Position numbers and translations under genes: made by a program
In this document: piece by piece, positions 35,990 to 56,239 of the stretch
How the letters are laid out: every line of letters begins with the position of its first letter
Numbering within the stretch: position 1 is the first letter of the stretch
The notes under the pieces: generated by a model
What the model was told of the DNA's origin: nothing
Database searches by the model: none
Seen by the model: the letters and a program-made list of their open reading frames with translations, nothing else
From: an uncultured Verrucomicrobia subdivision 3 bacterium
GTDB taxonomy: Bacteria > Verrucomicrobiota > Verrucomicrobiia > Limisphaerales > UBA8199
Direction of reading: 5' to 3'
DNA: 64,000 nucleotides
NCBI GenBank assembly: GCA_903913865.1
Contig: CAIWMU010000181.1
Coordinates: 1 to 64,000, forward strand

Positions 35990-38900
35990 TCACCCCTTCT
36001 TCCCCGGGTTCAACACTGCCGGAAGGAACCTTCCCGTGTGGGATGCCCGGCATTTGGCGACTTCCTCAGGGGTGCCTTCGGCCACCAGTTTTCCGCCACC
36101 CTCCCCGCCCTCGGGACCCAGGTCGATCACCCAATCCGCCTCGGCGATCAGTTCCAGGTTGTGCTCGATCACAATGACCGAGTGTCCGGCATCCACAAGC
36201 CGCTGGAGCACCTCCACCAGCTTCCGGACATCGGACAGGTGCAGGCCAATGCTGGGTTCCTCCAGGATGAAGAGGTTCCGGCGCGTGCCGGACTCCAGCG
36301 GATCGACCTCCTTGAGGCCGGTGAGGAGGTGGGAGACCAGCTTGACCCGCTGGGCCTCGCCACCGCTGAGCGTGGGACTCGTCTGGCCGAGCTTGATGTA
36401 GCCGAGACCCGTGTCGCACAGCGCCTGCAGCGGGCGCCGGATGCGCGGCACGCTCGCAAAGAACTCCAGCGCCGCCTCCACGGAAAGTTCCAGCACTTCG
36501 GCGATGTTCCTGCCGGAGTAGGTGATGTCGAGTGTCTCGGTATTGAACCGAGAACCGCCGCAGGCCTCGCACCTGACGAATGCGGGCGGCAGGAAGTTCA
36601 TCTCCAGTTTCACCACCCCGGCCCCCTCGCAGGTGGGGCAGCGGCCCTCCTTGCTGTTGAAGGAAAACCGGGAGGGGGAATAGCCCCGCAGCCGCGCCTC
36701 CGGAATGCCGGAGAAAAGCTTCCGGATCTCATCAAAAAAGCCCACATAGGTGGCCGGTATTGATCGCGGCGTTCGGCCGATGGGGGTCTGGTTCACCTCA
36801 TACACCGCCTGGATGGTTTCCCAGCCGGTGAGTGGATCCCCGGCGGCCGATTCCGGAGTCTTGCGCCGGTTCTTCAGGGCCGATTCAAGGGAGGGCAGCA
36901 GGCATTCGCGGATGAGGGTGCTTTTGCCCGAGCCGCTCACACCGGTGACGAGCACCAGCCGGTTGAGCGGAAAGCGGATGACATCCCCCTTCAAATTGTT
37001 CTTCCGCGCCTGGCGCAGCACCAGCTTCCCCTTGTTGCCCGTCTTGACCGGCCGCCGCTCGCCGCGCAGCGGATGATGATGCGTGGCGGCCATGGATTGC
37101 CCGGTGATGGATTCCGGATGGCGCATCAACTCCTCCAGGGTGCCCGCCGCCACAACCTGCCCGCCGTGGACGCCCGCTCCCGGTCCGAGGTCGATCACAT
37201 GATCGGCCCGCCGCATGGTTTCCTCGTCATGTTCCACCACGATGATCGAGTTGCCCCGGGCCTTCAGCTTCTGCAGCGCATCCAGCAACTGCTCGTTGTC
37301 CCGGGAGTGCAGGCCGATGGTGGGTTCATCCAGGATGTAGAGGACGCCGCTGAGATTCGAGCCCAGCTGCGCCGCCAGCCGGATCCGCTGACTTTCCCCG
37401 CCCGAGAGGGTCGGTACCCCGCGCCCCAGTTGCAGGTAGCCCAGGCCGACCTCCCCGAGGAACTTCAACCGCTCCCGGATCTCCGGCAGGATGTCCCGCG
37501 CAATGACCGCCTCGCGACCGGCGGGCTTGAATCCCCCGAACCACTCCAGCGCCCCGCCCACCGGCATGGCGGCAAGATCATCCATCGTGAGGCCCCCCTT
37601 GCGCTTCCCCGGTCCCGCGCCCTCAAGCCGCACTGCACGCGCCACCGGGTTGAGCCGGGCCCCGGCACATTTCGGGCACGGCTCACGCTTGCCCTCCTGC
37701 CATTCAAACCACGATTCCTCAATCGCCTCGGCCCGCGCCCCCCGGTCCACATCCGGCAGGTAGAACAACTCCCCGAACCCCCGGCACTCCGGACACCAGC
37801 CCCGGGGGGAGTTGTAACTGAAGTTCTTTGGATCCAGCACTTCAAAGGACTTCCCGCACTCCCGGCACGCCCGCTCCGTGGAGTGGATGCTCACGACCCC
37901 CTTGCGGTCCAGTGCGTAAAGCAATCCCCCGCCCAGTTTCAATGTGGCATCCACCAGCGCCTGCAGGGCCGCCGGTGATGCACCCCTGGCACAGGTGCCG
38001 GTGACGATCTCCACATCGTGCTCCCGGAACCGGTCCAGGCGCAGTCGTTCGCTGGTTTCATGCATCTTCCCGTCGGCACGCACCCGCCCGTAGCCGTGCG
38101 CCGCCGCCCACTCGGCGACATCGGTGTGGAAGCCCTTGCGGTTCCGCACCACCGGGGCCAGCAGGGTCAATTCCCCGCGCGAAGCCGTTTCCGTCCGCAA
38201 CCGCCGCGCCAGCTCGTCCCGCGTCTGCGCCTCCACCGGCAGATTGCAATCCGGACAATACTGCGTACCCAACCTCGCAAACAGCAGCCGGATGAAGTGG
38301 TGGATCTCCGTCACCGTCGCCACCGTGCTTTTTCCCCCGCCCCGGCTGGTCCGCTGTTCGATGCTCACCGTCGGCGGAATGCCTGTGATGAGATCCACAT
38401 CCGGCCGGGAGAGCTGCTCCACAAATTGGCGGGCATAGACATTCATTGAATCCAGGAACCGGCGCTGCCCCTCGGCAAAAAGGAGGTCAAATGCCAGGGT
38501 GCTCTTGCCCGAACCGCTCACCCCGGTGATCACCACAAATTGATTCCGGGGGACATCCAGCGTGATGTTCTTCAGGTTGTGCTCCCGCGCCCCGTGGATG
38601 TGGATCATCTCGGGTGCGGACTCCTCGCGCACCACCACCGGCAGCGCTGCCCCCGGGCGGCGTCCCCCCCTGGATGCAGCAGCCCCCTCCCGGGAGACGG
38701 CCATCCCCTTCAAAGCACGACCGGTATGGCTCTCCGGCATTTCGGCCAGTTCCTCAGGCGTGCCCTGCGCCACCAGCCGGCCGCCCAGATCGCCCGCTTC
38801 CGGGCCGAGATCAATCACCCAGTCGGCCGATTGGATCACATCCAGGTTGTGCTCAATGATCAGCGCGGAGTTCCCGGCATCCACAAGCCGCTGGAACACC

Positions 38901-41860: not shown

Positions 41861-41981
41861 GCGCGGACAAGGTAGTGCCAGCCCGCCACCCGTGCAAGGG
41901 ATGGCACCAGCCGGAAAATCCCACCCAACCCCATTCCCCACGCCCCCAACACCTGCCTGAACCGCCCCACGCCCCTCCCCC

Positions 41982-42761
41982 TCAGCTGGAATCCCCCACC
42001 CCACACGCCAAGGCCTCCGAACCCGTCTCCGCAGCCATCCGCTCCAACCTGTCTTTCCGCTCCTCCCAATCGGGCATCACCCTCTGCAACAGTGCATGGA
42101 AAGCCGGACCATGCGAAGCGTGGACAAGATGACACAGCTCATGCACCACCACATAGTCGATGCAGGAGGGCGGTGCCATGACCAGCTCGGGATTCAGGTA
42201 GATGAGTCCCCGCCCGGTCCAACTCCCCCACCGCTTCGGCATCCGCCTCAGGCGGAGTTGCGGGGCGACCAGACGCCCGTGGAACCGGGCCACGCATTCC
42301 ACCAGACTTCGGGCGAACCGCTCCCTTGCGCGCTTCAAAAACCAGGCTGCAACCAAATCCCGCACCCGCTCACACTCCCCCGGTCGCACTGTTTCAACCC
42401 GGATGAACCTCCCCTTCAGCTTCGCCCCCTCCACCGGCCCCTCCACCACCTTCAACCGGTATTGGCGACCCAGATAACGGTGGGTCTCACCGCTGACATA
42501 CCGCCGGGGGGGCAGCTTCGGGAGGAAGTCCGAAAAATAGTCCTGCTGCCGCCGGATCCACCTGGCCCGCCGCCTCACCCGTGCCATCACTGCGGCAATC
42601 CCGGCCTGCCTCGGCGCCGTCACCACCACCGACAGGTCCGGCTTCACCTGGATCGCCAGCGTCCTGCGGGACGTCCTTTTGAGCAAAAAGCCTATCCGGC
42701 GCCCGCCGGACTCGACCTCATGCCGCTCCTCCACGCACTTGGATTGGTCACTCTTCTCCAT
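41982..42761 (-). CDS. YgjP/DUF45-type zinc metallopeptidase
   Basis: 259 residues. The start MEKSDQSK is chosen because GGGAGG lies six bases upstream; longer starts overlap hsdR. The family is shown by RRIGFLLKRTSRRTLAIQV, WIRRQQDYFSDF, YVSGETHRYLGRQYRLKV, WGSWTGRGLIYLNPELV, and the zinc motif VVHELCHLVHASHGPAFHALL (HELCH plus a downstream His). These WLM/SprT-related proteins often sit next to hsdR in type I loci, as here (47 bp after hsdR). Its last codons are duplicated in the chimeric ORF at 54535-54678. The cellular substrate is unknown. Confidence 0.88.
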   Translation of the reverse strand: MEKSDQSKCVEERHEVESGGRRIGFLLKRTSRRTLAIQVKPDLSVVVTAPRQAGIAAVMARVRRRARWIRRQQDYFSDFLPKLPPRRYVSGETHRYLGRQYRLKVVEGPVEGAKLKGRFIRVETVRPGECERVRDLVAAWFLKRARERFARSLVECVARFHGRLVAPQLRLRRMPKRWGSWTGRGLIYLNPELVMAPPSCIDYVVVHELCHLVHASHGPAFHALLQRVMPDWEERKDRLERMAAETGSEALACGVGDSS

Positions 42762-42807
42762 TGCCCTCCCACTCGCGGCCATCTGCCGCTGTCCACTGTC
42801 CCCGGCA

Positions 42808-45800
42808 TCACCGGGCATAACGGTTCTTCGCAATTTCCAGCGACCGCTCAATGATCGCGTCCATGTCCTCCACCGTCAGCGCCAGCCCATGCTCCGACTT
42901 CACCGCATACAACAGGTCGTCAATCGCATTCCGCATCTCGTTCTGCCGGTCCATGTTCGTGCGCCAGTCCACCCCCACCCTTGCTTGGATCGCATCGTCA
43001 ATCCGCACCGCCACATCCGCAGCCAGCCCCGGCAGCGTCTCCGCCCCCACCGGCAGCCTTCCCAGCACCTCGTTTACCACGCCGTAAAAGGCTTTCGCCA
43101 CATCCCGGTGCCGCAGCACCGGCGGCAGGTTGTCGCCCGTGCGCGTCACCACCGCCTCCATCGCCTCGGTGGCACGCTTCAGATACTCCCCCTCGCTGAT
43201 CCGCCGCTCACGGTAGGCCTCAATCGCCTCCTCAAGGATCTTCGAGAACCGCCGGTAAAACACCGGATCATCATCCATCTTGTCGGTGATGGTCCGCGCC
43301 GTCCGGTGCGCGATCGTGTCCGCCTTTGATCCCGCCCCCTCCAGCCTCTCCACCTCCGCCTTGAACTTGTCCCGCTCAAAGATGCTGATCAGTTCCGTGA
43401 TCTTGCACACCTCGCTGGCCACCACGTGCGTGTCCACCAGCTTCTGCACCTTGGCCTCATACTCCTTGTAATCAATCTCCTCGGCATAACGCTTCTTCAC
43501 CGCCGCCCGCAGCTTCATGAAAAATGCAAGGTCATCCTTGTAACGCCGGATCTTCGTTTCCGGGGTTTCCCGGAGAAACCGTGCGCTCGACAGGGCCACC
43601 CCCAGTGTCCGGTGGAAGCCGCACAATTTCTCGTAGAATTTCTGCCGCAGATCCTCGTCCGCCAGCACCCGCTCATACTCCTCCTCGTCCAGCTTGTTCC
43701 TGACCCCCCGGAATACATCCAGCAGTTCAGAATGCCTCTGGGACACCTGACCCGCCACCGCCCCGATGTCCCCCAGCGCCGAACTCACATCCTCCCCGTC
43801 AAAATCCGGCAGCGCGGCATACAGATCCAGCGCCAGGTCCAATTCCTGGATCACCCCATAGTAATCCACAATATAACCATAATCCTTGCCCTCCCACAGC
43901 CGGTTCACCCGCGCGATCGCCTGCAGCAGCGTGTGCTCCTTCAGCGACCGGCACACATACAGCACCGTGTTCCGCGGAGCGTCAAATCCCGTGAGCAGCT
44001 TGTCCACCACGATGATGATCTCCGGCTCCGGTCCGTGCTTGAACGCATTGATCACCTGCCGGTTGTACGCTTTCTCATTCCCGTGCTTCGCCATCACCAC
44101 CTTCCAGAACGCCTGCACATCCTCCCTGCCCACCGTGTAAACATCGTCATTCCCCTCCCGCGTGTCCGGACCCGAAATCAGCACCTCGGATGTCACCCCG
44201 CCAAACTCATCCAGATACCGCTTGAACCGGATCGCTGTCGCCTTGTCGGGTGCCGTCAGTTGCGCCTTGAATCCCGTCCCCTGCCAGTTTTCGACAAAAT
44301 GCTCCCGGATGTCATGGGCCACGAGGTAAATCCGGCTCTGCGCCTTGTTCAACTGGTCCGCTGTCGCAAACTTCCGCTTCAGATCCGCCTTCTGGGCATC
44401 ATTCAACACCCCCGCAGCCACCTCAAACCACTTGTCCACAGCCTTCCCCTGCACCTCCTGCAGCGCGTGCCGCCCCTCATACAACAGCGGCACCACCGCC
44501 TTGTCCTTCACCGCCTGGTCTATCGTGTATGCGGGCAGGATGATCCCCCCGAACCGCCGCGCCGTGTTCTTCTCCCGCTTCATCAACGGTGTCCCGGTAA
44601 ACCCGATGAAACATGCCTTCGGCAGCACCTTCTCCATCTGCGCCCCGGCCTCCCCATACACGCTCCGGTGGCTTTCATCCACCAGCACAAACAGGTTCGG
44701 CGATTCATCCCGAAACTCCCCCGCCCTCAGCGCCGCATCAAATTTGTCCAGCACCGTCGTCATCACCTCCGCCTTCCCCTCCTTGATCAGCCTCGCCAGG
44801 TGCTTCCCGGTCAGCGCCTGCACCGGCTCCAGCCCGCATTGGTGGAACGTCTTCTTGATCTGGTCATCCAGATCCACCCGGTCCGTCACCAGCAGCAGCC
44901 GCGCCCCGGCCAGTCCCGGCTCCAGCGCCAGGGATTTCGCCAGCATCACCATCGTCAGCGATTTTCCCGATCCCTGCGTGTGCCACACCACCCCGCCCAG
45001 CCGCCGCTCCTGCCCCTCCGGAAGCACCCGCACCCGTTCCACGATGCTCTTCACCGTGAAATATTGCTGGTAGCGGGCTATCTTCTTCTCCCCCGCGTCA
45101 TACACAATGAACCGCCACGCCAGATCCAGCAGCCGCTCCGGCCGGCACAGGCAGTAAAGTCCCTTGTCCTGCCCTGTCACCTGCCGGGGCTGGGCTTCAA
45201 GCTCATCAAAAAACTCCCGCACATAGCCGAACCGGTCCGCAAACAACCTCTCCTTTTGCGCCCGCGTCAACGGCCGGTTCACGATCGCACCCACCTCCGC
45301 CTCCAGATCCTTCTCCCGGCTCCCCTCCAGCTCCCGCCAGTGCGACCAGAATTTCGCCGCCGTCCCTGTCGTCCCATACGAGGCCTCGTTCTTCGAAAGC
45401 CCCACCAGCAACTGCGCGAACGTGAAAAGCCTCGGAATGTAATCATCCCCCTGGTTGCGGATATGCTGCGAAACGGCCTGCGGCAGCAGATCCTTCCCAC
45501 CCAGCACCGGCTGCTTGCACTCAATCACCGCCAGCGGTATCCCGTTCACGAACAACACCACATCGGGACGGCACAGATCCCTGCTCCCCGAACGCTCCAC
45601 CTCAAACTCCCCCACCACATGAAACACGTTGTTCCCCGGATTCCGCCAATCAATATACTGCAGAGTGAAACTCTTCGTGTCCCCACCCGCATCCCCCCCG
45701 GCCGCAGCCGGGATCGTCTGCTCCAGCGCCTTGCCCAGGCTCAGCAGGTCATACACCCGCTCACTGGTCCGCACCAGCCCGTCAAACGGAATGTCCTTCA

Positions 45801-46038
45801 GACTCTGGATCGCCATCTGGATGTTAGCCTCCGTGAAATCCTGCTCACTGCCCCGGTGGCGCACCTTGTTCATCCGCCGCAACTGGTCCGCCAATATCCC
45901 CTCCAGCAGAACATTCGACAACCGCCCCTTCCGCTCCAGATGCACCTCCTGCGGCCGCAGATAGGTGTAGCCAAGCTGTTGCAGCAACTGCAAGGCAGGC
46001 ACTTGCGATATATGGTCTTCCTGAAATATTGGTGTCAT
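42808..46038 (-). CDS. hsdR: Type I restriction enzyme R subunit
   Basis: 1076 residues, normal length. The PD-(D/E)xK nuclease site is CRPDVVLFVNGIPLAVIECKQP near residue 180-200. Superfamily 2 translocase motifs follow: HTQGSGKSLTMVM (Walker A, about 354), VDESHRSVYGE (DEAH-like, about 448), FIGFTGTPLM, and FDAPRNTVLYVCRSLKEHTLLQAIARVNR (motif VI region). The subunit translocates and cuts DNA as part of HsdR2M2S1. The start overlaps the DUF1016 stop (ATGA). The first 20 codons (MTPIFQEDHISQVPALQLL) recur, diverged, at the head of the two micro-ORFs at 49031 and 54678. Confidence 0.95.
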   Translation of the reverse strand: MTPIFQEDHISQVPALQLLQQLGYTYLRPQEVHLERKGRLSNVLLEGILADQLRRMNKVRHRGSEQDFTEANIQMAIQSLKDIPFDGLVRTSERVYDLLSLGKALEQTIPAAAGGDAGGDTKSFTLQYIDWRNPGNNVFHVVGEFEVERSGSRDLCRPDVVLFVNGIPLAVIECKQPVLGGKDLLPQAVSQHIRNQGDDYIPRLFTFAQLLVGLSKNEASYGTTGTAAKFWSHWRELEGSREKDLEAEVGAIVNRPLTRAQKERLFADRFGYVREFFDELEAQPRQVTGQDKGLYCLCRPERLLDLAWRFIVYDAGEKKIARYQQYFTVKSIVERVRVLPEGQERRLGGVVWHTQGSGKSLTMVMLAKSLALEPGLAGARLLLVTDRVDLDDQIKKTFHQCGLEPVQALTGKHLARLIKEGKAEVMTTVLDKFDAALRAGEFRDESPNLFVLVDESHRSVYGEAGAQMEKVLPKACFIGFTGTPLMKREKNTARRFGGIILPAYTIDQAVKDKAVVPLLYEGRHALQEVQGKAVDKWFEVAAGVLNDAQKADLKRKFATADQLNKAQSRIYLVAHDIREHFVENWQGTGFKAQLTAPDKATAIRFKRYLDEFGGVTSEVLISGPDTREGNDDVYTVGREDVQAFWKVVMAKHGNEKAYNRQVINAFKHGPEPEIIIVVDKLLTGFDAPRNTVLYVCRSLKEHTLLQAIARVNRLWEGKDYGYIVDYYGVIQELDLALDLYAALPDFDGEDVSSALGDIGAVAGQVSQRHSELLDVFRGVRNKLDEEEYERVLADEDLRQKFYEKLCGFHRTLGVALSSARFLRETPETKIRRYKDDLAFFMKLRAAVKKRYAEEIDYKEYEAKVQKLVDTHVVASEVCKITELISIFERDKFKAEVERLEGAGSKADTIAHRTARTITDKMDDDPVFYRRFSKILEEAIEAYRERRISEGEYLKRATEAMEAVVTRTGDNLPPVLRHRDVAKAFYGVVNEVLGRLPVGAETLPGLAADVAVRIDDAIQARVGVDWRTNMDRQNEMRNAIDDLLYAVKSEHGLALTVEDMDAIIERSLEIAKNRYAR

Positions 46039-47246
46039 CGCTGCCCCTTCCCTTTTGCGGCTTCTGCGGCTTTTCGGGGCGATTCTCCCTCCCTCAACAG
46101 CCTCCCATACATCTTAAGCCGCTCCTCCAGCACCCGCTTATCCGGCAGCCCGATCAGATACTCCGACACCTGCATCTTGTGCGGCCCCGCAGCCAGCAGC
46201 AGCTCCACATGCTGCCGCTTCTTCGACGTGCATAGAATCAGCCCCACCGGCTCATTCTCCCCCTCCCGCCATTCATGTCGCTTCAGCCAGGCCAGGTACA
46301 AATCCATCTGCCCCTTGTCCGCCGCGACAAATGCCCCAATCTTCAAATCCACCGCCACGAGGCATCGCAGCCGCCGGTGATAAAACAGCAGGTCCAGATA
46401 ATAATCCTCGTCATCCACCCGCATCGGATACTGCCGCCGGATAAAACAAAACTCGCTCCCCAACTCCGTCAGGAATTGTTGCAGGTTGGCGATGATGGCC
46501 GATTCCAGATCCTTCTCCGAATACGTCCCCGTCAACCCAAGAAAATCGAGCAGATACGGATCTTTGAATGCCTCCTGGTAATCCGCCACTTCCACCGGCC
46601 CCTTTTGCTTCTCCAGCTTCACCAGCCCCCGCGTGTCGCTCGACAGCGCCACCCGCTCAAACAACGCCCTGGCTATCTGCCGCTGCAATTCACGCTTTGA
46701 CCACCGCTCGACACTGGTCCGCTCAAAATAGAATCGCCGCTGGCGCGCGCCCTCGATACCGAGGAGAATCCGGTAATGGGTCCAACCAAGGTGATAATGC
46801 TTCGAAAAGTCAATCAGCAGCAGATTCCTTCCCTCCAGGACCAGGCTCGATGGAGGGTTCTGGCATCCCGATTCTCTAGCCACTGGTGAGAGAATTGCCG
46901 ATTCTCCTGCCACTGGCTGGAGAATTTGGAAGGTGGCTTGGAACCGCTTCATGTCCCACAGGTTGGGGGCCGAAAAGCCCCGCCCGTATTCTCGATTCAG
47001 CCGAAGGGCCAACTGTTCAATGAGCTGGCTCCCATACTCCGCCCGCCCCGGTGCCCGCTGCAGCTCTGTGTTGATGACCCGCCCCACATTCCAATACAGC
47101 GCCACCATCGACAGATTCGCCGCCCTCACCGCCCTGTGCCGGGCTTCCTCAATCAGGCCCCGTATTTCCGGCAGCAGGCCCTCAACCACCCCGGTCAGGC
47201 CCGCGTCACCGCCTCTTCCCAAGGTTGTCTTTTTCCCTTTGCTCAT
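46035..47246 (-). CDS. DUF1016 (YhcG-type) PD-(D/E)xK nuclease-like protein
   Basis: 403 residues from MSKGKKTTLG; this start overlaps the upstream stop by ATGA. The N-terminal domain (VRAANLSMVALYWNVGRVINTELQ, YGSQLIEQLALRLNREYGRGFSAPNLWDMKRF) and the C-terminal nuclease domain (DYYLDLLFYHRRLRCLVAVDLKIGAFVAADKGQMDLYLAWL, with Asp and Asp-x-Lys) are both present. Family members lie in many type I R-M loci. The stop overlaps the hsdR start, implying coupled expression. A short Ser/Pro insert (about 120-145) separates the two domains. Confidence 0.88.
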   Translation of the reverse strand: MSKGKKTTLGRGGDAGLTGVVEGLLPEIRGLIEEARHRAVRAANLSMVALYWNVGRVINTELQRAPGRAEYGSQLIEQLALRLNREYGRGFSAPNLWDMKRFQATFQILQPVAGESAILSPVARESGCQNPPSSLVLEGRNLLLIDFSKHYHLGWTHYRILLGIEGARQRRFYFERTSVERWSKRELQRQIARALFERVALSSDTRGLVKLEKQKGPVEVADYQEAFKDPYLLDFLGLTGTYSEKDLESAIIANLQQFLTELGSEFCFIRRQYPMRVDDEDYYLDLLFYHRRLRCLVAVDLKIGAFVAADKGQMDLYLAWLKRHEWREGENEPVGLILCTSKKRQHVELLLAAGPHKMQVSEYLIGLPDKRVLEERLKMYGRLLREGESPRKAAEAAKGKGQR

Positions 47247-47632
47247 GTATGCAAGTCCTTTCTCTGCCTCTCCCATCCCAAATGTCGCGACAGTGTCGTG
47301 ACAATCCTCTCACCCGGAAACGCCTCGGCAAGTGCCACCATCCGGGAGAGATTCGGCCAGGAAAATCCGCGTCCAAACCCGCCCGCCAATTCTTTCGACA
47401 CCGTCGCAAGAATCTCCTTCCCATACTCCGCCCGTTTCTCCCGCAGCACCACCTTCCGGATTCGATGGCCGATCTGCCAATGCAGCACCACCATCGCCGC
47501 GTTCACCCCACGCGCCACCGTCTGCCGCGTGGCAAGGATCAATTCCCTCAAATCCGTTAGTAGCGGTTCCGGTTCCCTCGCACCGGCCACCGTCACCGGT
47601 GCCATGGTTGTTATCATCCTCTTTTTCATCAC
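47243..47632 (-). CDS. DUF1016 N-terminal-domain-only protein (truncated paralogue)
   Basis: 129 residues. It matches only the DUF1016 N-terminal domain (ARGVNAAMVVLHWQIGHRIRKVVL, YGKEILATVSKELAGGFGRGFSWPNLSRM). It breaks off at LSRHLGWERQRKDLHT, exactly where full-length proteins continue with a LGWSH-type segment into the nuclease domain. Its stop overlaps the start of the full DUF1016 gene. It is either a remnant whose 3' part was replaced by the next gene or a stand-alone helical domain kept as a partner. Confidence 0.75.
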   Translation of the reverse strand: MMKKRMITTMAPVTVAGAREPEPLLTDLRELILATRQTVARGVNAAMVVLHWQIGHRIRKVVLREKRAEYGKEILATVSKELAGGFGRGFSWPNLSRMVALAEAFPGERIVTTLSRHLGWERQRKDLHT

Positions 47633-47732: not shown

Positions 47733-48920
47733 TCACCTCCGCTCCCCCCACTCCCCCTCCTTGTTATAATTCATTGATCTGGACCACCCGAACCCATTCC
47801 AAATCTGATCAAACAACGGGCGCAGCAGACTCCCCGGCGGCTTGGTGACGTCTTCGATCAGGATCTCATCAGTGATCAGGTGATCCCGGTCCAACACTTC
47901 CCCACCCCCGCCCCGAAGGCCGACCTCCACGGCCATGGTGTGCCCGCGCACCCCCAGCAGCCCTATGCCAGCCACATACGGCGTTCGCAGGTTCAATGCC
48001 TGCAACGCACGCACATAGCCCGGAAACGCTTGCACGATGCAACGCTCCCACTCAAGTCCCGGAATAGCCCTCCCGAAAAGCCCATTGGGATCGAGTGTTC
48101 GGCAATCTACAGCCTCAATAAACCCGCTTCGAAATACCTGCACATATCCGCCATAGGCTCCCATTTTCCAGCTCGGGGTAACCAAAAGCCCTTCCATATT
48201 GAACGATGATACGCAGCCTCCGATCCCCGGGGGCTTGGGCAGGTCCGATTCCGTCAACCTCTCCAGATCCGCTGTCCCCAACCGCATATCCGGCCTCGCC
48301 GACACTACCGGTAACAGGTGCACCACCATCAAGTGATCCGAGGTCAATTTCACCGGGCCCCTGCCCGAAACCAGGCGGTTGATCCGCTCAAGCCGGAAAT
48401 TCTTAAGCCTATCCGCCATCCCCTCGCTACCAAGAAACGCCGAACGCAACTCCTGAACGTCCAAATCGTACTTCCCGGTCGCGTTCCGCCCACAAAACCG
48501 CGTCACCCCCTTGTGTCGCACCATGTGCGGCGCCGCATAGCTCCTCCCCACCCGGACCAACAAAGCATGGTTCCCATTCTCCAGCTTCCTTGCCTCAATC
48601 TGCAATCCACTCGCCCGGGGTTGAACAGAATCCCGCAGCAAATTCTCCAACGTCCCAATTCGATCGTCCGGCACGAAGTTCCTCAGCCCCACCACCTCCG
48701 CCGCCACCCCTTTTTCCGCACGCACCCCGAAAACGAGATCCCCACCATCGCTATTCGCCAACGCAGTCACATCGCTCAGAAACTCTATCTTCTGCTCGTC
48801 GGTGGTGACTTGGAGCGCCTCCTTGAACTCAAGTGTTCGGGACTCGCAAGCGCCGTTCGCCGCCAGTCCGGCCAGAACCTTCTCGTCCACTTCCGAGAGT
48901 CTTAAATGTTGGAGCGACAT
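47733..48920 (-). CDS. AlbA_2 (Schlafen-type) domain protein
   Basis: 395 residues. Residues about 25-150 form an AlbA_2 domain: ESRTLEFKEALQ, EFLSDVTALANSDGGDLVFGVRAE, and KGVTRFCGRNATGKYDLDVQELRSAF. The C-terminal 230 residues have no named domain. AlbA_2 proteins include regulators and Schlafen-like nucleases and are common accessory genes of R-M islands. It begins 21 bp after the micro-ORF at 48942 and is followed by the DUF1016 pair. Confidence 0.82.
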   Translation of the reverse strand: MSLQHLRLSEVDEKVLAGLAANGACESRTLEFKEALQVTTDEQKIEFLSDVTALANSDGGDLVFGVRAEKGVAAEVVGLRNFVPDDRIGTLENLLRDSVQPRASGLQIEARKLENGNHALLVRVGRSYAAPHMVRHKGVTRFCGRNATGKYDLDVQELRSAFLGSEGMADRLKNFRLERINRLVSGRGPVKLTSDHLMVVHLLPVVSARPDMRLGTADLERLTESDLPKPPGIGGCVSSFNMEGLLVTPSWKMGAYGGYVQVFRSGFIEAVDCRTLDPNGLFGRAIPGLEWERCIVQAFPGYVRALQALNLRTPYVAGIGLLGVRGHTMAVEVGLRGGGGEVLDRDHLITDEILIEDVTKPPGSLLRPLFDQIWNGFGWSRSMNYNKEGEWGERR

Positions 48921-48941: not shown

Positions 48942-49031
48942 TTAGGCCTTAACCCTCACCTCTCCCGTCAGCAGCAACTGCAGCGCAGGCACCTGCGATA
49001 TATGGTCCTCCTGAAATAACGGTGTGCTCAT
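48942..49031 (-). CDS. Chimeric micro-ORF: hsdR start fused to hsdS end
   Basis: 29 residues. Residues 1-20 (MSTPLFQEDHISQVPALQLL) match the HsdR N-terminus (MTPIFQEDHISQVPALQLL) encoded at 46038. Residues 20-29 (LLTGEVRVKA) match the HsdS C-terminus (LLTGEIRVKV) encoded at 50682. The junction lies at a shared GCTG. The ATG overlaps the SEFIR gene stop (ATGA), as the intact hsdR ATG overlaps the DUF1016 stop. I interpret it as a deletion scar; it may still be translated by coupling. Confidence 0.7.
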   Translation of the reverse strand: MSTPLFQEDHISQVPALQLLLTGEVRVKA

Positions 49032-50617
49032 AATTGAACGTCCTCCGGCCTCAAATCCTCAAACAGCGTCGCGTGAACCGGGTTGAAATAGCTCGGCAAA
49101 AGTGTGGATTCCCCGTTCCAACGCTTCGTCTGCTCAACCCATTCCGGCCACGCAGCCGCCATGCGTGAATCAGCCACGCCAAGGCTCCGCCAGATTTTTC
49201 TCGTTTGAGTTTCCGCCTCAATCAATCGGCCATAGGCCTTCCGCTGAAGCTCGCGCGGCATCGTCAGCCAGCCCGTGGGGATGTCCAGGAGCGGCCGTCC
49301 CATCTGGTTAAAGTCAGTCTGTCCCTGCATGATGCGGCACGCCAGCTCCTGCACGCTTAACGCCATGTAGTAGGCACACAGCGCGGTTAGATACCGCTCA
49401 TCAGTGCCAAAAACCCGCTTCAGCCACGGCCACTTTTCGGGCAGTTCCGTCAGATACCTCCACGCTCCCGTGGTCGTGCTTTGGAACGATTCTGGCGCGC
49501 CCACAAGCCCATGTTGCGTGTGCAACACCAAGGCCTCAACCTGGTGTGCATCAGCAATCCGTGCTCGGGAAAGCCTCATGCCAAGCTCCAGAACATCCGC
49601 ATCCACACAAGTGGCACCATGCAGCGCCTGGAAGGTGAAAACCAAAGCTGCCGGGATGCGCCCCACAACCACCAGCCCGCTTGTATTCCAATCCCTCGGC
49701 TTCAAGAACTCATCCAGCAACGCCCCCTGCTTCGTAAATCTCTCCTGGCCCGACTCCACCCCCGCCAGTGCCAGTGCCATCAGCGGGCTGTAAATGGTCG
49801 CAGCCTCCGATACCATGTTCGGCAGCTCCGCGATTGTCATTGAGGCCCTCCCGTCCTGCTTTTTGCGCCACGCGTTCAACCTGCCGCTTAAAGGCTCCTT
49901 CACCCTCTGCGCAAGCTCCCGCCATGCCTTCACGTCACCACCGCGCGCAATCTCCAGGCCAGTCAGGTAGGCCGTCTCGGCATCCACCACCTCATCCGTC
50001 AACACCCCGGCAGCCGTTGCACCCCCGGTCGCCACCCCCTCCAGCGCGGCGGTAACACCTTCAATGTTTGCCCGTGCCGCATAGGGGTTTTTCCCCAACG
50101 GTGGCTTCCGCAATTTCGGTGTGTCCTGAATGTTCCTTGCCAGCTCCTCGAACCCTGCCTCAAACGAACGATCATCACTCAGTTGTGCATAAACCCGCGT
50201 GCTCACAGATTTGGGGACAAATTCTTCCCCGGGTCGCTGCCGGAGCACGGGTATGAATTTATTTTCGCCTTGATCCCGCACAAGCTCTCCATCCACCACC
50301 ATTGCTTCATACCCCACGCCGCCTTCTCCTCCGTCAGCCTTCCGCACATACTCTGCCGTGCAGATCATCAGCACCCGGTCCGCCCGCGATACCGATTGGC
50401 GCATATACTTCACCAAATCATCCCCGTGGCTGACGTCCCATTGGTCCAAAAACACCTTCACCCCGGCGCCAAGCAGTCGCTCGGCCAGCATCAGCACCCA
50501 CGCCTTGTGCTCCTCCGAATCATGCGAATACGAAATAAGCACCACCGGCACTTTCGGTTCCACCCCGCCCTGGCCATCGCTCGCCTCAGTCTTCTCGTTT
50601 CCTGTTTCCGTGCTCAT
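49028..50617 (-). CDS. SEFIR/TIR-like domain protein
   Basis: 529 residues. Residues about 23-170 are a SEFIR-type domain: KVPVVLISYSHDSEEHKAWVLMLAERLLGAGVKVFLDQWDVSHGDDLVKYMRQSVSRADRVLMICTAEYVRKAD (shown by ISYSHDS, FLDQWD and MICTAEY). The remaining 350 residues are helical without a named domain. Bacterial SEFIR/TIR proteins are typical effectors or adaptors in defence loci. It lies directly after hsdS (64 bp gap) and is followed by the chimeric micro-ORF. Confidence 0.85.
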   Translation of the reverse strand: MSTETGNEKTEASDGQGGVEPKVPVVLISYSHDSEEHKAWVLMLAERLLGAGVKVFLDQWDVSHGDDLVKYMRQSVSRADRVLMICTAEYVRKADGGEGGVGYEAMVVDGELVRDQGENKFIPVLRQRPGEEFVPKSVSTRVYAQLSDDRSFEAGFEELARNIQDTPKLRKPPLGKNPYAARANIEGVTAALEGVATGGATAAGVLTDEVVDAETAYLTGLEIARGGDVKAWRELAQRVKEPLSGRLNAWRKKQDGRASMTIAELPNMVSEAATIYSPLMALALAGVESGQERFTKQGALLDEFLKPRDWNTSGLVVVGRIPAALVFTFQALHGATCVDADVLELGMRLSRARIADAHQVEALVLHTQHGLVGAPESFQSTTTGAWRYLTELPEKWPWLKRVFGTDERYLTALCAYYMALSVQELACRIMQGQTDFNQMGRPLLDIPTGWLTMPRELQRKAYGRLIEAETQTRKIWRSLGVADSRMAAAWPEWVEQTKRWNGESTLLPSYFNPVHATLFEDLRPEDVQL

Positions 50618-50681: not shown

Positions 50682-51872
50682 TCAGACTTTCACCCGGATT
50701 TCCCCCGTCAGCAGCTTCTGCATCAGCCCCCGCTTCTGCTCCTTCAGCGCCCCCAGTTGCTTTTGCAGCAACTCGATTTCCCGGTCGCAGGCTTCCATCG
50801 TGTCCGCGATCTTCTTCTGTTCCGCCAATGTCGCTGGAATGTTCACCGGCAGGCGCAAAAATTCTTCCGGGTCAAAATTCAGCCGTAAACGTTCCGCAAA
50901 AAAACCATTGCTCGCCTGAATCGCCATGTACCACATCCGCTTTGTCTGGCCGAGGTAGCCCAAAATCCGAATGTCAAATGCCTTGGGGTCTTTGGGTCGC
51001 AGGATGGTGTAAAGTTCGGACACTCTCGCGCCGTCAAACTCTTTCGGCACGAGCGCCATTGCACCGTAGGCCGCTTGAATGTGCGAAATCAGAAAGTCGC
51101 CGGTCCGAATCGTCTGCAGTTTCTTCACCTTGATCTGATCGCCTCGCAGCTCCTCACGCGAGAAAACACCGCCGCACCAGCGCCGCACACTCGCCAGCCG
51201 ATAAAGTTCATGCTCATCCCACGCCACCGGGCGCGACATTGCTTGGACCACATCTCCAAGATGGCAATGCCGCCACTTCTCCCCCTTGAACTCCTTAAAC
51301 CGCGTCCGCCCCGTCAGCAGTTGCTGCATCAGCCCCCGCTTGCGGCTCGATCTGTCACCGATCAAACCTTCAAGGACCCTGACCGCGCGGTCCCATGTGT
51401 TTAACACTTCTCCAATTTTGCGTTGCTCCAGCTCATCTGGTAGCGGAAAAGCGATGCTGCGCACTAAATCGGCGTTTAAATTATCCTGACCGCCAGAGTT
51501 GCTCATTCTTCGGATGCTGGCGTATCGGTAGGCCAATTGTTGATAAACGAAATCACGGTCGCAGCCCTTCTGCAAAAGCAGCGCTGCACAAGCTTGATTT
51601 ATCGCAGCATCAATTCCAAGAATCGCAACCTGTCCTCTTGTCTTGCCCTGCCCATACATCGCCATCAGGATAGTCCCAGTCGGTATCATTCGCGCGGCCG
51701 AACTTCGCAGGCCCTCTTCTGTTATCCACTCGTTGGATTCGGTTATAGTGCAGAAGTCTATTGCTCCGGTCTTGACCCAAGGGATAGTCCCGCCCCAAAG
51801 CTCTGGCTTGTTCCGAGGCGGCGTACCTCCAGATACGACTTGCGCTATGTCCCCAACCGTGACGCGCCTCAT
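50682..51872 (-). CDS. hsdS: Type I restriction enzyme S subunit
   Basis: 396 residues with two target-recognition regions (about 1-165 and 205-370), each followed by a conserved coiled-coil repeat (LEQRKIGEVLNTWDRAVRVLEGLIGDRSSRKRGLMQQLLTG and LAEQKKIADTMEACDREIELLQKQLGALKEQKRGLMQKLLTG). It sets the bipartite DNA target and holds two HsdM. Its ATG overlaps the hsdM stop (ATGA). The C-terminal LLTGEIRVKV is echoed in the micro-ORF at 48942. Confidence 0.94.
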   Translation of the reverse strand: MRRVTVGDIAQVVSGGTPPRNKPELWGGTIPWVKTGAIDFCTITESNEWITEEGLRSSAARMIPTGTILMAMYGQGKTRGQVAILGIDAAINQACAALLLQKGCDRDFVYQQLAYRYASIRRMSNSGGQDNLNADLVRSIAFPLPDELEQRKIGEVLNTWDRAVRVLEGLIGDRSSRKRGLMQQLLTGRTRFKEFKGEKWRHCHLGDVVQAMSRPVAWDEHELYRLASVRRWCGGVFSREELRGDQIKVKKLQTIRTGDFLISHIQAAYGAMALVPKEFDGARVSELYTILRPKDPKAFDIRILGYLGQTKRMWYMAIQASNGFFAERLRLNFDPEEFLRLPVNIPATLAEQKKIADTMEACDREIELLQKQLGALKEQKRGLMQKLLTGEIRVKV

Positions 51873-53365
51873 ACGCCCAACTCCTTCAGGTAAGCCCCCA
51901 TCTCCAGCCGCACCCCCGCCAGCTGCGATTCCAGAACCTCAATTTCCTTCTGCACCGCCTTCAAGTCCACTTCCGCCTCCGGCTCGAAGGTGTCCACATA
52001 GCGCGGAATATTCAGGTTGTAGTCATTCTCGGCGATCTCCCCCAGCGTCGCCCGGTAGGCGTATTTGTCCACCGTCTGGAACGTCTTGTAGGTCGCCACG
52101 ATCCTGGCAATCTGCTCCGCCCCCAGCCTGTTCTGGTTCGTCCCCTCCACATATTCCCGGCTCGCATCAATGAACAGCACATCCTGAGTCTTCTTGCCCT
52201 TGTTGAGGATCATGATCGTCGCCGGAATGCCCGTCCCAAAGAACAGCTTCTCCGGCAGCCCGATCACCGCCTCCAGCACATTCTCCTCGATCAGCGCCTT
52301 GCGGATCCGGCCCTCCCCACCGCCCCGGAACAGCACCCCGTGCGGCACCACCACACCCACCCGGCCACCCTCCTCCTTCGCGCTCTCAACCATGTGGCTG
52401 ATGAAGGCGTAATCCCCCTTGCTCTTCGGCGGCACACCCCGGTGGAACCGGTGGAACCTGTCGGCCTCCGCAGTCTCCGCACCCCACTTGTCCAGCGAGA
52501 ACGGCGGATTCGCCACCACGATGTCAAATTTCATGAGCGAGTCCTTCTCGATCAGCTTCGGGTTCCCGATCGTGTCCCCCCACTCAATCCGCGCCGCATC
52601 CTTGTTGTGCACCAGCATGTTCATCCGGCACAGCGCCCACGTGCTCCCGTTCATCTCCTGCCCGTAAAGCGAGAAGTCATTGTCCCCGACCTGGTCCCCC
52701 ACCTGGATCAGCAGCGACCCCGAGCCGCACGTCGGATCACAAATCCGGCTCCCCTTCTTCGGCGCCAGCAGCCGCGCCAGCAACTCCGAGACCTCCCCCG
52801 GCGTGTAAAACTCCCCGCCCTTCTTCCCCGCGTCACTCGCAAACCGCCCGATCAAATATTGATACGTGTTCCCGATGATGTCCTCCTTGCCCACCCTCGA
52901 AGGCCGCAGGTCCATCGCCTCCGTCGCAAATTCCTCCAGCAGCGCCTTCAGCCGCTTGTTCCGATCCTTGGTCTGCCCCAGGTTCGCTTCGGAATTGAAG
53001 TCAATATTCCGGAACACCCCTTCCAGTTTTGCCTTGTTCGCATCCTCAAGCTGCTCGAGCGCCACGTTGATCAGTTCACCGATGTTGCTCTCGCTCCGCC
53101 GGGCATGGAGGGCTTGAAAGTCGCACCCATCCGGCATCACGAACCGTTCCCGCGCCAGCCGCCGCTTCACCCGGTCAGGGTCCCCGTGGTATTCCTTCTC
53201 AAACTCCTCCTTCCGGTCCTTCCACACATCCGAAAGGTATTTCAGGAACAGCATCACGAGGATGTAATCCTTGTACTGCGCCGGGTCGATCGTCCCCCGA
53301 AAGGTGTCGCACGCACGCCACGCCACCGCATTGATTTCCTCCTGGCTGATCTTCTTCATGTCCAT
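51869..53365 (-). CDS. hsdM: Type I restriction-modification methyltransferase subunit
   Basis: 498 residues from MDMKKISQEE, preceded by GGGGAGC. The HsdM N-terminal helical domain (about 1-150) precedes the N6-adenine methyltransferase. The SAM site is ICDPTCGSGSLLIQ at about 206 and the catalytic motif IVVANPPFSLDKWG at about 282. It methylates adenine in the sequence set by HsdS. It starts 2 bp after the half-length hsdS and overlaps the full hsdS, forming one coupled unit. Confidence 0.95.
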   Translation of the reverse strand: MDMKKISQEEINAVAWRACDTFRGTIDPAQYKDYILVMLFLKYLSDVWKDRKEEFEKEYHGDPDRVKRRLARERFVMPDGCDFQALHARRSESNIGELINVALEQLEDANKAKLEGVFRNIDFNSEANLGQTKDRNKRLKALLEEFATEAMDLRPSRVGKEDIIGNTYQYLIGRFASDAGKKGGEFYTPGEVSELLARLLAPKKGSRICDPTCGSGSLLIQVGDQVGDNDFSLYGQEMNGSTWALCRMNMLVHNKDAARIEWGDTIGNPKLIEKDSLMKFDIVVANPPFSLDKWGAETAEADRFHRFHRGVPPKSKGDYAFISHMVESAKEEGGRVGVVVPHGVLFRGGGEGRIRKALIEENVLEAVIGLPEKLFFGTGIPATIMILNKGKKTQDVLFIDASREYVEGTNQNRLGAEQIARIVATYKTFQTVDKYAYRATLGEIAENDYNLNIPRYVDTFEPEAEVDLKAVQKEIEVLESQLAGVRLEMGAYLKELGV

Positions 53366-53366
53366 A

Positions 53367-53969
53367 TTACAAGCTCCCCGGATTTTGATTTTTGGTTTCG
53401 CGCCGCACCGCCTCACACATGAGGCCGTCAATCAGGAGGCGGCGCCGTTCCCTGATCTGCTCCAGCAGATTTTGCTCCTGCCGGCAGAGCCGGTTGATTC
53501 CCGCCACATGGTTCTGCATCTCGATGCTCGGCACCGGGACCGGTAATTGCGCAAACGCCTCCATCGGAATGAACGGCACCCCCGAGCCCGACCGGAACGC
53601 CCGGATCCGCTCCTGCGTCTCCGGCAGATTCAGGAACCACGTCAGGTAATCCGGAAACGCCAGGTATTGGCTGCGTGCCCCCAGCACAAACAAGTGCGGT
53701 GCCGCGATCACATCGCCCGTCCTGCCCACGAACGTCGCCGCCTCATTCCGCGTCCCCCGCCCCACAAAGAGCACATCAGCGTAATTGAGAACGTGCTTCT
53801 CCCAGTTCGCCGGGGCCTCCACGTGCCCCAGCCGGTTCCCCACCTCCCCCGTTTCCGCCCGCACATCCCCCATCTGCACCAGTCGGCACCCCCCCCGCTC
53901 AGCCCGCTCGATTCTCCCCCGAAACGGGTAGCCAGTCCTGATCTCCGCAATCTCTCCAAGCTTTCTCAT
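53367..53969 (-). CDS. Half-length type I specificity subunit (single TRD)
   Basis: 200 residues. A single target-recognition domain (MRKLGEIAEIRTGYPFRGRIERAERGGCRLVQMGDV; VLFVGRGTRNEAATFVGR; AFRSGSGVPFIPMEAFAQLPVPVPS) and one coiled-coil arm (EMQNHVAGINRLCRQEQNLLEQIRERRRLLIDGLM) are present. Full HsdS has two of each. Single-TRD S proteins can dimerise to give a palindromic target. Its start overlaps the upstream gene (ATGA) and its stop is 1 bp from hsdM, so it is well placed for expression with hsdM. Confidence 0.85.
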   Translation of the reverse strand: MRKLGEIAEIRTGYPFRGRIERAERGGCRLVQMGDVRAETGEVGNRLGHVEAPANWEKHVLNYADVLFVGRGTRNEAATFVGRTGDVIAAPHLFVLGARSQYLAFPDYLTWFLNLPETQERIRAFRSGSGVPFIPMEAFAQLPVPVPSIEMQNHVAGINRLCRQEQNLLEQIRERRRLLIDGLMCEAVRRETKNQNPGSL

Positions 53970-54403
53970 GGGTGAGAACGCTGCTGCCCGGGGTCCACCA
54001 TTGTGTCGTTTAGGTCCCAGTGGAGGACGGTTCCTTTGCGGACATCACCTGGGACAGAAGCCACGAAGGGGGGCCACTGCCGGTCCTCCCTACCCCATAG
54101 AATCAGAGTCACGCCTCCCGCCAGATTCAGGTCAAGGCCCTGCAAGATTTTCACATCGCAGCCGTCCGTCAGGGACAGCTCAGTCCCAGCCCCGCCGTTG
54201 CTAAGCCGCAGCGTAGCCCCCCTGGCCAGAACGTCCGTCTCGCCCCCCTGCCACCATCGTTTCCCGAATGCATCACTGTCCATAGTCCAAAACTTCCAGT
54301 GAACCAACCCAACCTCAGATTCGCCCGTGTTCTCAATGTCCACAAAGGCCCCCGGCGTCCCATCCCCGTTCACCATCGCTCTGCGTATGATCAGCATAAT
54401 CAT
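53966..54403 (-). CDS. Unknown protein coupled to the half-length S gene
   Basis: 145 residues, beta-rich and acidic/Trp-rich (TGESEVGLVHWKFWTMDSDAFGKRWWQGGE; LSLTDGCDVKILQGLDLNLAGGVTLILWGRE). It resembles a small beta-sandwich. No family recognised. Support comes from the ATGA overlap with the half-length S gene and from its position as first gene of the hsdM operon, behind an AT-rich gap (54404-54534) that probably holds the operon promoter. Confidence 0.6.
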   Translation of the reverse strand: MIMLIIRRAMVNGDGTPGAFVDIENTGESEVGLVHWKFWTMDSDAFGKRWWQGGETDVLARGATLRLSNGGAGTELSLTDGCDVKILQGLDLNLAGGVTLILWGREDRQWPPFVASVPGDVRKGTVLHWDLNDTMVDPGQQRSHP

Positions 54404-54534: not shown

Positions 54535-54678
54535 TCAAACCTTACCTTTAGAGGGTGTTTGCGCCCAATTCCCCCCCCATCGAAGGCCTCCCCCCACCCC
54601 ACACGCCAAGGCCTCCGAACCCGTCTCCGCAGGCACCTGCGAAATGGGGTCTTCCTGAAAGGATGGTTCTGCGCTCAT
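54535..54678 (-). CDS. Chimeric micro-ORF: hsdR start fused to YgjP-gene end
   Basis: 47 residues. Residues 1-17 (MSAEPSFQEDPISQVPA) are a diverged HsdR N-terminus, and residues 17-28 (AETGSEALACGVG) equal the end of the YgjP-like protein encoded at 41982. The tail is read-through of the 3' flank. About 42 bp of DNA here (54593-54634) is identical to 41993-42034. The join lies at a shared CTGCG. The ATG lies 1 bp after the stop of the AlbA_2/GHKL gene. I interpret it as a deletion scar of a former hsdR-ygjP pair. Confidence 0.65.
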   Translation of the reverse strand: MSAEPSFQEDPISQVPAETGSEALACGVGGGLRWGGNWAQTPSKGKV

Positions 54679-54679
54679 A

Positions 54680-56239
54680 TCACTTCTTTGGCGCGTTGCG
54701 GACAACTTCCCGGCCCGGTTCCGTCAAATGATAACGCTGGTCCGCAGCGTTCGGCTTGTCGGGCTTTGACATCCCCACCCATCCCGCCGCCAGTGCCGGG
54801 CGCAAGATCTGGGTGCGAAGGTGTTCCCGGTCCGCCAGCTTCAGTTTGACCTGCAGTTCACCCCGGCTCCTCGGCCTCGACAGCACCCGCAGGAGTTGCA
54901 AGACTTGCGGGGTGACTTGCGGGGTGACTTGCGGGGTGACTTGCGGGGTGACTTGCGGGGTGACGCGGCTGAACGCGGGATGAATCAGCAGTTCCGTCAC
55001 GAAATAGGTGCGTTCCTCATCCGTATGGAATACCGGGGGCGGTGATCCGTTCCGCTCAAGGGCCCGTGTCATTTTCGGGATGCCGGTTCCCCGTCCTTCA
55101 GTCAGTTCAAGCTCCTTGAGGAACTCTCCTATGCGCCGGTTGCGGTAGCGCCTTGGCAGAAACCGGCGGTTCCGCAAATCTACGTCACGGATCGAACGGT
55201 CCGGCCCGGGAACACTGTGGATCAGAATGCGATCCGGCAGAATCCTGATTTCCACCGGCTCGCGCACATCGTAGGCCCGATGATAAACCGCGTTGCCCAA
55301 CGCCTCCTCCAGCGCAACGAAGGGATAATTGGAACAACGCTCCGCTTCGGCACGATCGGGATGCTTGATGACTTTCTCCTCGACCACCTGGCTGCGCAGG
55401 TGGTTGATCGCCTCGGAGAGCATCCGATCCAGCGGGCCGGCGAAAGTCTTCTCGGTGAACGAATCCGCGCCCAGCCCCTCGGGGAAGTGCGCGACTTCAA
55501 TCCGGCAGTAAGGAAAAAACTCCTCAGGGCGCTCGCTAAAGAACATCAGCCCCACGTTCTTGGGATGCGCCCGTTCCTCCGGGCCCTCCGCCACATTCAT
55601 CCGGCGGCACAGGTCGTTGAAGTCCATTTTCGCGGAGCTCCTATACAAATCACTCCCTACCCGCTTCAAGTATGCCCTGACCAACCCCAGATCCAGGTCA
55701 TCGAGGCTGGCCTGCAGGTTTATCCGGTCGTCAAACGGGACAGTTGCCGCCATCGAGATCAGCTCCACTTCATCACCATGTTTCGCCCGAACCGTCGCCG
55801 ACCCTTTGCGCACGTAATACCCGTATTCCCGGTTCTCCCTGGACAGGGATACGGGTGCCTTGTAGGGCCTCGTCTGGCCCCCGGGAGCCGAAAGCACCAG
55901 AACCACCCTGCCTCCCACATCGCAAGGCGCCATCAATGGATGATACGGCGGAATGATCAGATGCCCCAACCGCAGGACCTCCTTTTGGATCGCATCCAAT
56001 TCCTTCGGATTCAGTCCGGCTGCAGGCAGCACGGGTTGGCCCTTCTGCTCGGCCACCCCGATCAAAATGTAACCGCCGCCGAGATTGTGCAGATCATTGG
56101 CGAAGGCACACATCGTATGCAACACCGCTTCCGGATTCCACCCGGCTTTGAACTCCAACCGTTCCCACTCCACGGTCCGCGCCGTCAGCAAATCCTGGAT
56201 GTTGATCGGAAGCCCAAATTCTTTCGGCGTGGTTTTCAT
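54680..56239 (-). CDS. AlbA_2-GHKL-winged-helix protein (RecG-like regulator family)
   Basis: 519 residues. The AlbA_2 domain spans about 20-150 (EWERLEFKAGWN, NLGGGYILIGVAE, YYVRKGSATVRA). A HATPase_c_4-like domain spans about 290-400 (VALEEALGNAVYHRAYDVREPVEIRILPDRILIHSVPG; EGRGTGIPKM). A winged-helix C-terminus completes it. The linker holds VTPQ repeated five times, encoded by a 12-bp tandem repeat (54910-54966). This family is annotated as putative transcriptional regulators or RecG-like helicases, without helicase motifs. It is followed after 1 bp by the chimeric micro-ORF. Confidence 0.85.
   Translation of the reverse strand: MKTTPKEFGLPINIQDLLTARTVEWERLEFKAGWNPEAVLHTMCAFANDLHNLGGGYILIGVAEQKGQPVLPAAGLNPKELDAIQKEVLRLGHLIIPPYHPLMAPCDVGGRVVLVLSAPGGQTRPYKAPVSLSRENREYGYYVRKGSATVRAKHGDEVELISMAATVPFDDRINLQASLDDLDLGLVRAYLKRVGSDLYRSSAKMDFNDLCRRMNVAEGPEERAHPKNVGLMFFSERPEEFFPYCRIEVAHFPEGLGADSFTEKTFAGPLDRMLSEAINHLRSQVVEEKVIKHPDRAEAERCSNYPFVALEEALGNAVYHRAYDVREPVEIRILPDRILIHSVPGPDRSIRDVDLRNRRFLPRRYRNRRIGEFLKELELTEGRGTGIPKMTRALERNGSPPPVFHTDEERTYFVTELLIHPAFSRVTPQVTPQVTPQVTPQVTPQVLQLLRVLSRPRSRGELQVKLKLADREHLRTQILRPALAAGWVGMSKPDKPNAADQRYHLTEPGREVVRNAPKK
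54908..54967. repeat. 12-bp tandem repeat coding VTPQ
   Basis: Five near-perfect copies of GGGGTGACTTGC (plus strand) lie within the AlbA_2/GHKL gene. Copy-number changes would keep the frame and only alter the length of the linker between ATPase-like and winged-helix domains. Confidence 0.85.

Follow-up and report, generated by a model that had tools for sequence, protein, structure and literature searches.

Where does a micro-ORF come from that begins like hsdR, continues as the end of the metallopeptidase gene ygjP and stands among the accessory genes of a type I restriction-modification (R-M) operon? Such an ORF lies in the window, the whole 64,000-nucleotide stretch of DNA analysed here, in an island whose features are listed below in the order of the coding strand. 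Each copy of a 42-bp direct repeat is placed after the feature that carries it, and uvrA follows ygjP. We call micro-ORFs and remnants of this kind scars.

54680-56239, minus strand: accessory gene, SLFN AlbA_2 + HATPase_c_4 (GHKL) + Fic-like_C (Pfam)
54535-54678, minus strand: scar 1, in-frame micro-ORF of an hsdR start (17 codons), a ygjP end and unrelated codons up to the stop
54591-54632: 42-bp direct repeat, copy 2, the ygjP end within scar 1
53966-54403, minus strand: accessory ORF (145 aa), weak lamin-tail-domain match under the cut-off
53367-53969, minus strand: hsdS', half-size specificity-like protein (PADLOC Specificity_I)
51869-53431, minus strand: hsdM
50682-51872, minus strand: hsdS
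49028-50617, minus strand: accessory gene, bSEFIR; in L109 an intact hsdR comes after the homolog, in L100 a scar
48942-49031, minus strand: scar 2, in-frame micro-ORF of an hsdR start (~20 codons) and an hsdS end, in ATGA overlap with the SEFIR stop
47733-48920, minus strand: accessory gene, SLFN AlbA_2
47243-47632, minus strand: DUF1016_N fragment
46035-47276, minus strand: accessory gene, DUF1016_N + YhcG PDDEXK nuclease (PDC-S02)
42808-46038, minus strand: intact hsdR, in ATGA overlap with the preceding accessory gene
41982-42851, minus strand: intact gene of a YgjP-like metallopeptidase
41993-42034: 42-bp direct repeat, copy 1, the end of intact ygjP

The SEFIR, AlbA_2 and DUF1016 genes sit on the same strand between hsdS and hsdR, i.e., in the arrangement of embedded genes, and family matches (bSEFIR, PDC-S02) hint at a possible link of the accessory genes to defence. 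The same type of hsdR is directly followed by ygjP in four other loci (L051-L054). Some local features deserve mention in their own right. The DUF1016_N fragment stands right before the full DUF1016/YhcG gene and is probably a partial duplication. The AlbA_2/GHKL gene carries 12-bp tandem repeats (VTPQ; 54902-54964) between its GHKL and C-terminal parts, and two of its homologs (L046 and L047) have TGQV repeats at that place. The UvrA homologue adjoining the island (35990-42004, minus strand) apparently consists of two UvrA units in one frame of 2004 aa.

Two micro-ORFs made of gene ends

Read on the minus strand from 54678 to 54535, scar 1 translates as MSAEPSFQEDPISQVPA up to the joint and as ETGSEALACGVGGGLRWGGNWAQTPSKGKV from there to the stop, and the joint keeps the frame of both hsdR and ygjP. 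In the hsdR part, FQED-ISQVPA matches the N-terminus of the intact HsdR (MTPIFQEDHISQVPA, start at 46038 on the minus strand). This part scores 53 against the HsdR of the same operon and 63 against a panel of hsdR starts, the maximum among decoys being 52 (four decoy queries per locus, 85 loci); across the scars, the homology of the hsdR-derived 5' part to hsdR starts is above chance. At the DNA level, 36 of 45 positions (~80%) are identical to the resident hsdR, and the hsdR of other genomes is equally near (42/51 in L093). The ygjP half matches the resident gene at 42 of 42 positions. The repeat opens with CTGCG, a motif that is also found on the hsdR side of scar 2 (GTGCCTGCG). The ATG lies 1 bp past the stop of the AlbA_2/GHKL gene (54680), and some 130 bp separate the stop of the scar from the next gene, so that coupling on that side is not evident. 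The sequence-only reading had thus described the object correctly: an ORF that fuses an hsdR-like start of 17 codons to the end of ygjP, shares 42 bp exactly with the intact gene and begins 1 bp after the stop of a different accessory gene. By itself, this micro-ORF is a gene remnant.

It is not alone. When the whole genome was searched with the DNA of the micro-ORF, matches were found in ygjP, in hsdR and at 48984-49032. The last belongs to scar 2, which the earlier reading had missed. Its translation (49031-48942) runs from an hsdR start, MSTPLFQEDHISQVPALQLL, into the hsdS end LTGEVRVKA and the stop; the counterpart of this end in the resident HsdS is the C-terminus ...QKLLTGEIRVKV. The AlbA_2 gene comes next after scar 2. 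On another contig of the same genome (C118), a second type I operon with a different type of hsdR (MPHAYTEDQLVEQPAIGLF...) has three hsdR-start remnants upstream of the intact gene, lying among DUF3800, Nmad3, Nmad2, Fic and CIA30 genes, and in two of the three the stop overlaps the next start codon.

Scars recur in type I R-M loci of the order

We surveyed 85 loci from this genome and its relatives in the order, each consisting of hsdR with up to 12 kb upstream; most of the genomes are drafts. The first 45 residues of each HsdR were compared with its own upstream DNA, and low-complexity matches of proline-rich repeat peptides in some HsdR queries (L120, L128) were left out. Same-strand remnants above all decoys (maximum 52) were found in 17 of the 85 loci. 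In the search with panels of gene ends, hsdR starts gave 54 matches on the hsdR strand versus 4 on the opposite one, hsdS ends 31 versus 2 and hsdM ends 21 versus 3. There was little strand bias among hsdM starts (42 versus 33) and hsdS starts (9 versus 5), whose matches are mostly noise, except for a few strong ones in L134, L111 and L092. The pieces that are kept are thus the end of hsdM, the end of hsdS and the start of hsdR, which are the ends that face the insertion sites. The suggestion that gene ends are hot spots for exchange is broadly supported for these three ends; the end of ygjP was found only in scar 1.

After filtering out the true hsdR starts, about 40 scars remained in 25 of the 85 same-order loci. 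The pattern was also present in 3 of 21 loci of Bacteroidota (L158, L159, L163), and in none of 21 gammaproteobacterial loci. Searching genome contigs with HsdR turned up only four distant relatives, none of which had scars. One scar (L077) lies in a genome assembled as a single contig of 4.9 Mb, so misassembly is no general explanation. Chance similarity to hsdR is ruled out by the decoys and the strand bias, and a one-off event by the scars of the second island together with the survey.

A number of related remnants were seen in these loci. HsdM C-terminal remnants occur just before or near hsdS in L060, L082, L085, L110, L041 and L123; several of them follow an inserted gene, and the hsdM-hsdS junction thus bears the same kind of scar. 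In L065, three scars at ~6.4, 5.1 and 2.9 kb upstream of hsdR share one unrelated continuation (RRVKSEIGRVQFRGPFPISLLTLH), which suggests that a scar itself may have been copied inside the operon. Short AlbA_2-type N-terminal remnants (31-53 residues matched) were found at G127:C16:68092-68250, G116:C240:919-1032 and G118:C190:8925-9017 and are perhaps similar scars of other genes. The HsdR N-terminal regions of L113-L128 and the nearby DNA contain proline-rich repeat peptides of the TPHPGPLPxRGEGE type, as if a small repeat element were spreading through those genomes.

Scars occupy the place of hsdR

If scars are what is left of hsdR, they should stand where hsdR stands. We scored a scar as abutting when its start was between -12 and +30 bp from the upstream ORF's stop. 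This was the case for 26 of 38 scars and for 52 of 85 intact hsdR genes, compared with 116 of 1700 random positions (7%). The strongest comparative test is provided by the SEFIR gene of the window, which has only two full-length homologs in 196 relatives. One (L109) is in ATGA overlap with an intact hsdR of the same type. The other (L100) is followed by an hsdR-start scar that continues in frame into an accessory protein of 506 aa; this protein (L100:2777-4297, minus strand) has no Pfam match and carries the hsdR start (MNTTPSFQEDHISQVPALR) as its N-terminus.

More generally, about ten scar-preceding genes have homologs directly before an intact hsdR elsewhere, a count that carries the selection of the loci for having hsdR. 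In L115, a scar follows an AlbA_2/GHKL gene whose 75% homolog abuts an intact hsdR in L119, and similar pairs link L124 to L058 (87%) and L082 to L075 (71%). Relatives in which the AlbA_2/GHKL gene of the window would be followed by a full-length hsdR and ygjP, as the sequence-only reading had predicted, were not found: in G021 and G116, which carry its nearest homologs (58%), the gene does not adjoin hsdR. Scar 1 is therefore interpreted from the general pattern and scar 2 from direct comparison. By that pattern, the view that hsdR once followed the AlbA_2/GHKL gene at scar 1 is well supported; the part of the claim that fits poorly is a single deletion inside one divergent hsdR-ygjP pair, given the unequal divergence of the two halves.

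The pieces diverged as coding sequence

Pooled over the scars, the differences from the resident hsdR are mostly synonymous (pS 0.41, pN 0.18, dN/dS 0.34). Neutral decay of a local copy would raise dN/dS. Most scars thus probably derive from other functional alleles of hsdR, and the divergence together with the dN/dS makes a local copy of the resident hsdR an unlikely source for most of them.

A recognisable hsdS end is present in only about one third of the scars. Where this end comes at most 700 nt after the hsdR start, which is how a joint was counted, 12 of 13 joints are in frame (the chance expectation is one third, and the cases are not all independent); the proportion is 10 of 11 when scars are chosen by their hsdR part alone. 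In L115, the stop of the preceding gene adjoins the start of the scar, and the scar ends at the native hsdS stop, which overlaps the start codon that follows. These contacts suggest that an in-frame joint may keep translational coupling.

Proposed stacking and trimming of modules

We propose that scar 1 very probably arose when modules were stacked in a type I R-M operon. Accessory genes, mostly of defence type, would travel in units of the form hsdM-hsdS-X-hsdR, where each accessory gene X abuts the hsdR start. Stacking of units from different donors, or insertion of a new unit beside the resident one, would leave a redundant hsdR. This gene would then be removed, along with the bulk of whichever gene stands before the next cargo (hsdS or hsdM; in scar 1, ygjP), leaving the first 9-120 codons of hsdR, often in frame with the last codons of that preceding gene. 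Such a joint would keep stop/start coupling on both sides, so that translation could run from the first accessory gene through the scar into the second, and this may be the reason that the frame is kept. We infer this order of events, and two routes fit it: deletions could have trimmed a stack of full operons, or DNA could have been inserted at the hsdR start with homology on one side. Deletion would cut from one hsdR start to the hsdS, hsdM or ygjP end of the next unit; insertion would join the hsdR start to the end of a neighbouring gene.

The deletion route in its simplest form is the one read from scar 1 at the outset: a single deletion at the common CTGCG removed the middle of a second, adjacent hsdR-ygjP pair behind the AlbA_2/GHKL gene. 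The adjacency of the two genes is old, judging from L051-L054, the microhomology agrees with the hsdR sequence of scar 2 and the joint of scar 1 is in frame. However, the perfect identity of the ygjP half and the ~80% identity of the hsdR half are a poor fit to one divergent pair, and an extra step (a recent copy, gene conversion or templated insertion) is needed. Other scars, moreover, join hsdR to the ends of hsdS or hsdM, and this deletion is thus not the general route. The CTGCG is indeed present, and we give the single deletion somewhat less than an even chance. A comparable, limited likelihood attaches to insertion with one homologous arm, by homology-facilitated illegitimate recombination or microhomology template switching, in which no second full operon ever existed. 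The incoming DNA would be joined illegitimately near the hsdR start or the end of a resident gene, duplicating that end. This would account for hsdS ends that are nearly identical to the resident ones beside a diverged hsdR start (L071, L115, L118), and likewise for the ygjP end of scar 1. Yet L071 and L115, though from different genomes, have hsdS ends that nearly match each other as well, which makes such identity weak evidence, and the state before insertion was seen in none of the cases.

An island bounded by an integrase, with the 42-bp repeat as attL/attR, is extremely unlikely. The direct repeat does bound 12.6 kb, and relatives in the family lack the island genes beside uvrA; in those genomes the conserved flank on the other side was not found, and the right flank has no DNA match in the genus relative G001. 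But no integrase match was found among the island proteins examined, and the repeat lies within a chimeric coding joint, of which like cases elsewhere have other partners. The repeat looks like a by-product, as the sequence-only reading had supposed. It is also very unlikely that the micro-ORF encodes a functional small protein under selection, e.g., an HsdR N-terminal decoy or a leader peptide. Such a function would agree with the kept frame, the start codons retained beside upstream stops and a dN/dS below 1. Against it, the lengths (9-120 codons) and partners of scars vary freely, their divergence can predate trimming and the 47-aa product of scar 1 has no family match. Returning to module stacking, a bolder extension, which we regard as rather doubtful, is that joints of hsdR starts and hsdS ends constitute an integrase-free cassette system with short conserved gene ends as recombination sites. 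If so, single defence genes could be added, lost and shuffled behind type I hsdS, and the in-frame joint would be a built-in translational linker.

Relation to known systems

Payne et al. (2024 preprint, doi 10.1101/2024.01.29.577857) reportedly describe defence genes that sit within type I R-M operons. Published cases are DarTG2, between hsdS and hsdR in EPEC (PMC12255303), and TgvAB in V. cholerae (PMC11411939). The site and the operon are of the same kind as in the island of the window; the hsdS-hsdR site has been termed a potential recombination hotspot, and the EPEC operon has an M48 metallopeptidase beside it, a further point in common with the island (PMC12255303). That defence genes lie inside other defence operons is thus already known, but the events that place them there are not. 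In the literature searched, we found no description of remnants of hsdR starts, hsdS ends and hsdM ends between stacked accessory genes and no report of in-frame joints of hsdR and hsdS, a provisional novelty since Payne et al. 2024 is outside that search. Scars are a widespread class, undescribed as far as checked, that records how embedded defence genes build up in type I R-M operons. They are readable fossils of the gene-placing events, which mark the borders of cassettes and name the former neighbour. A systematic search for them can help to reconstruct the growth of defence arrays and to find new defence genes between scars.

Homology-facilitated illegitimate recombination would yield one homologous and one illegitimate joint. 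This fits the anatomy of the scars and makes the process a candidate mechanism here. The term occurs in PMC6382021, among other papers. A further parallel is found in the arrays of orphan cdiA-CT/cdiI modules of CDI and Rhs loci, in which variable leftovers of a conserved parent gene are present (PMC3150448). Both these arrays and the scar-bearing operons are arrays of modules with leftover pieces of a parent gene. The island itself is not such an orphan array: it has no toxin/immunity domains, and its leftover is a 5' start. In CDI and Rhs loci, the leftover stands before a toxin 3' module and is generally without signals to initiate translation, whereas in the scars it is the 5' start of hsdR, complete with its start codon and often fused in frame to the end of another gene.
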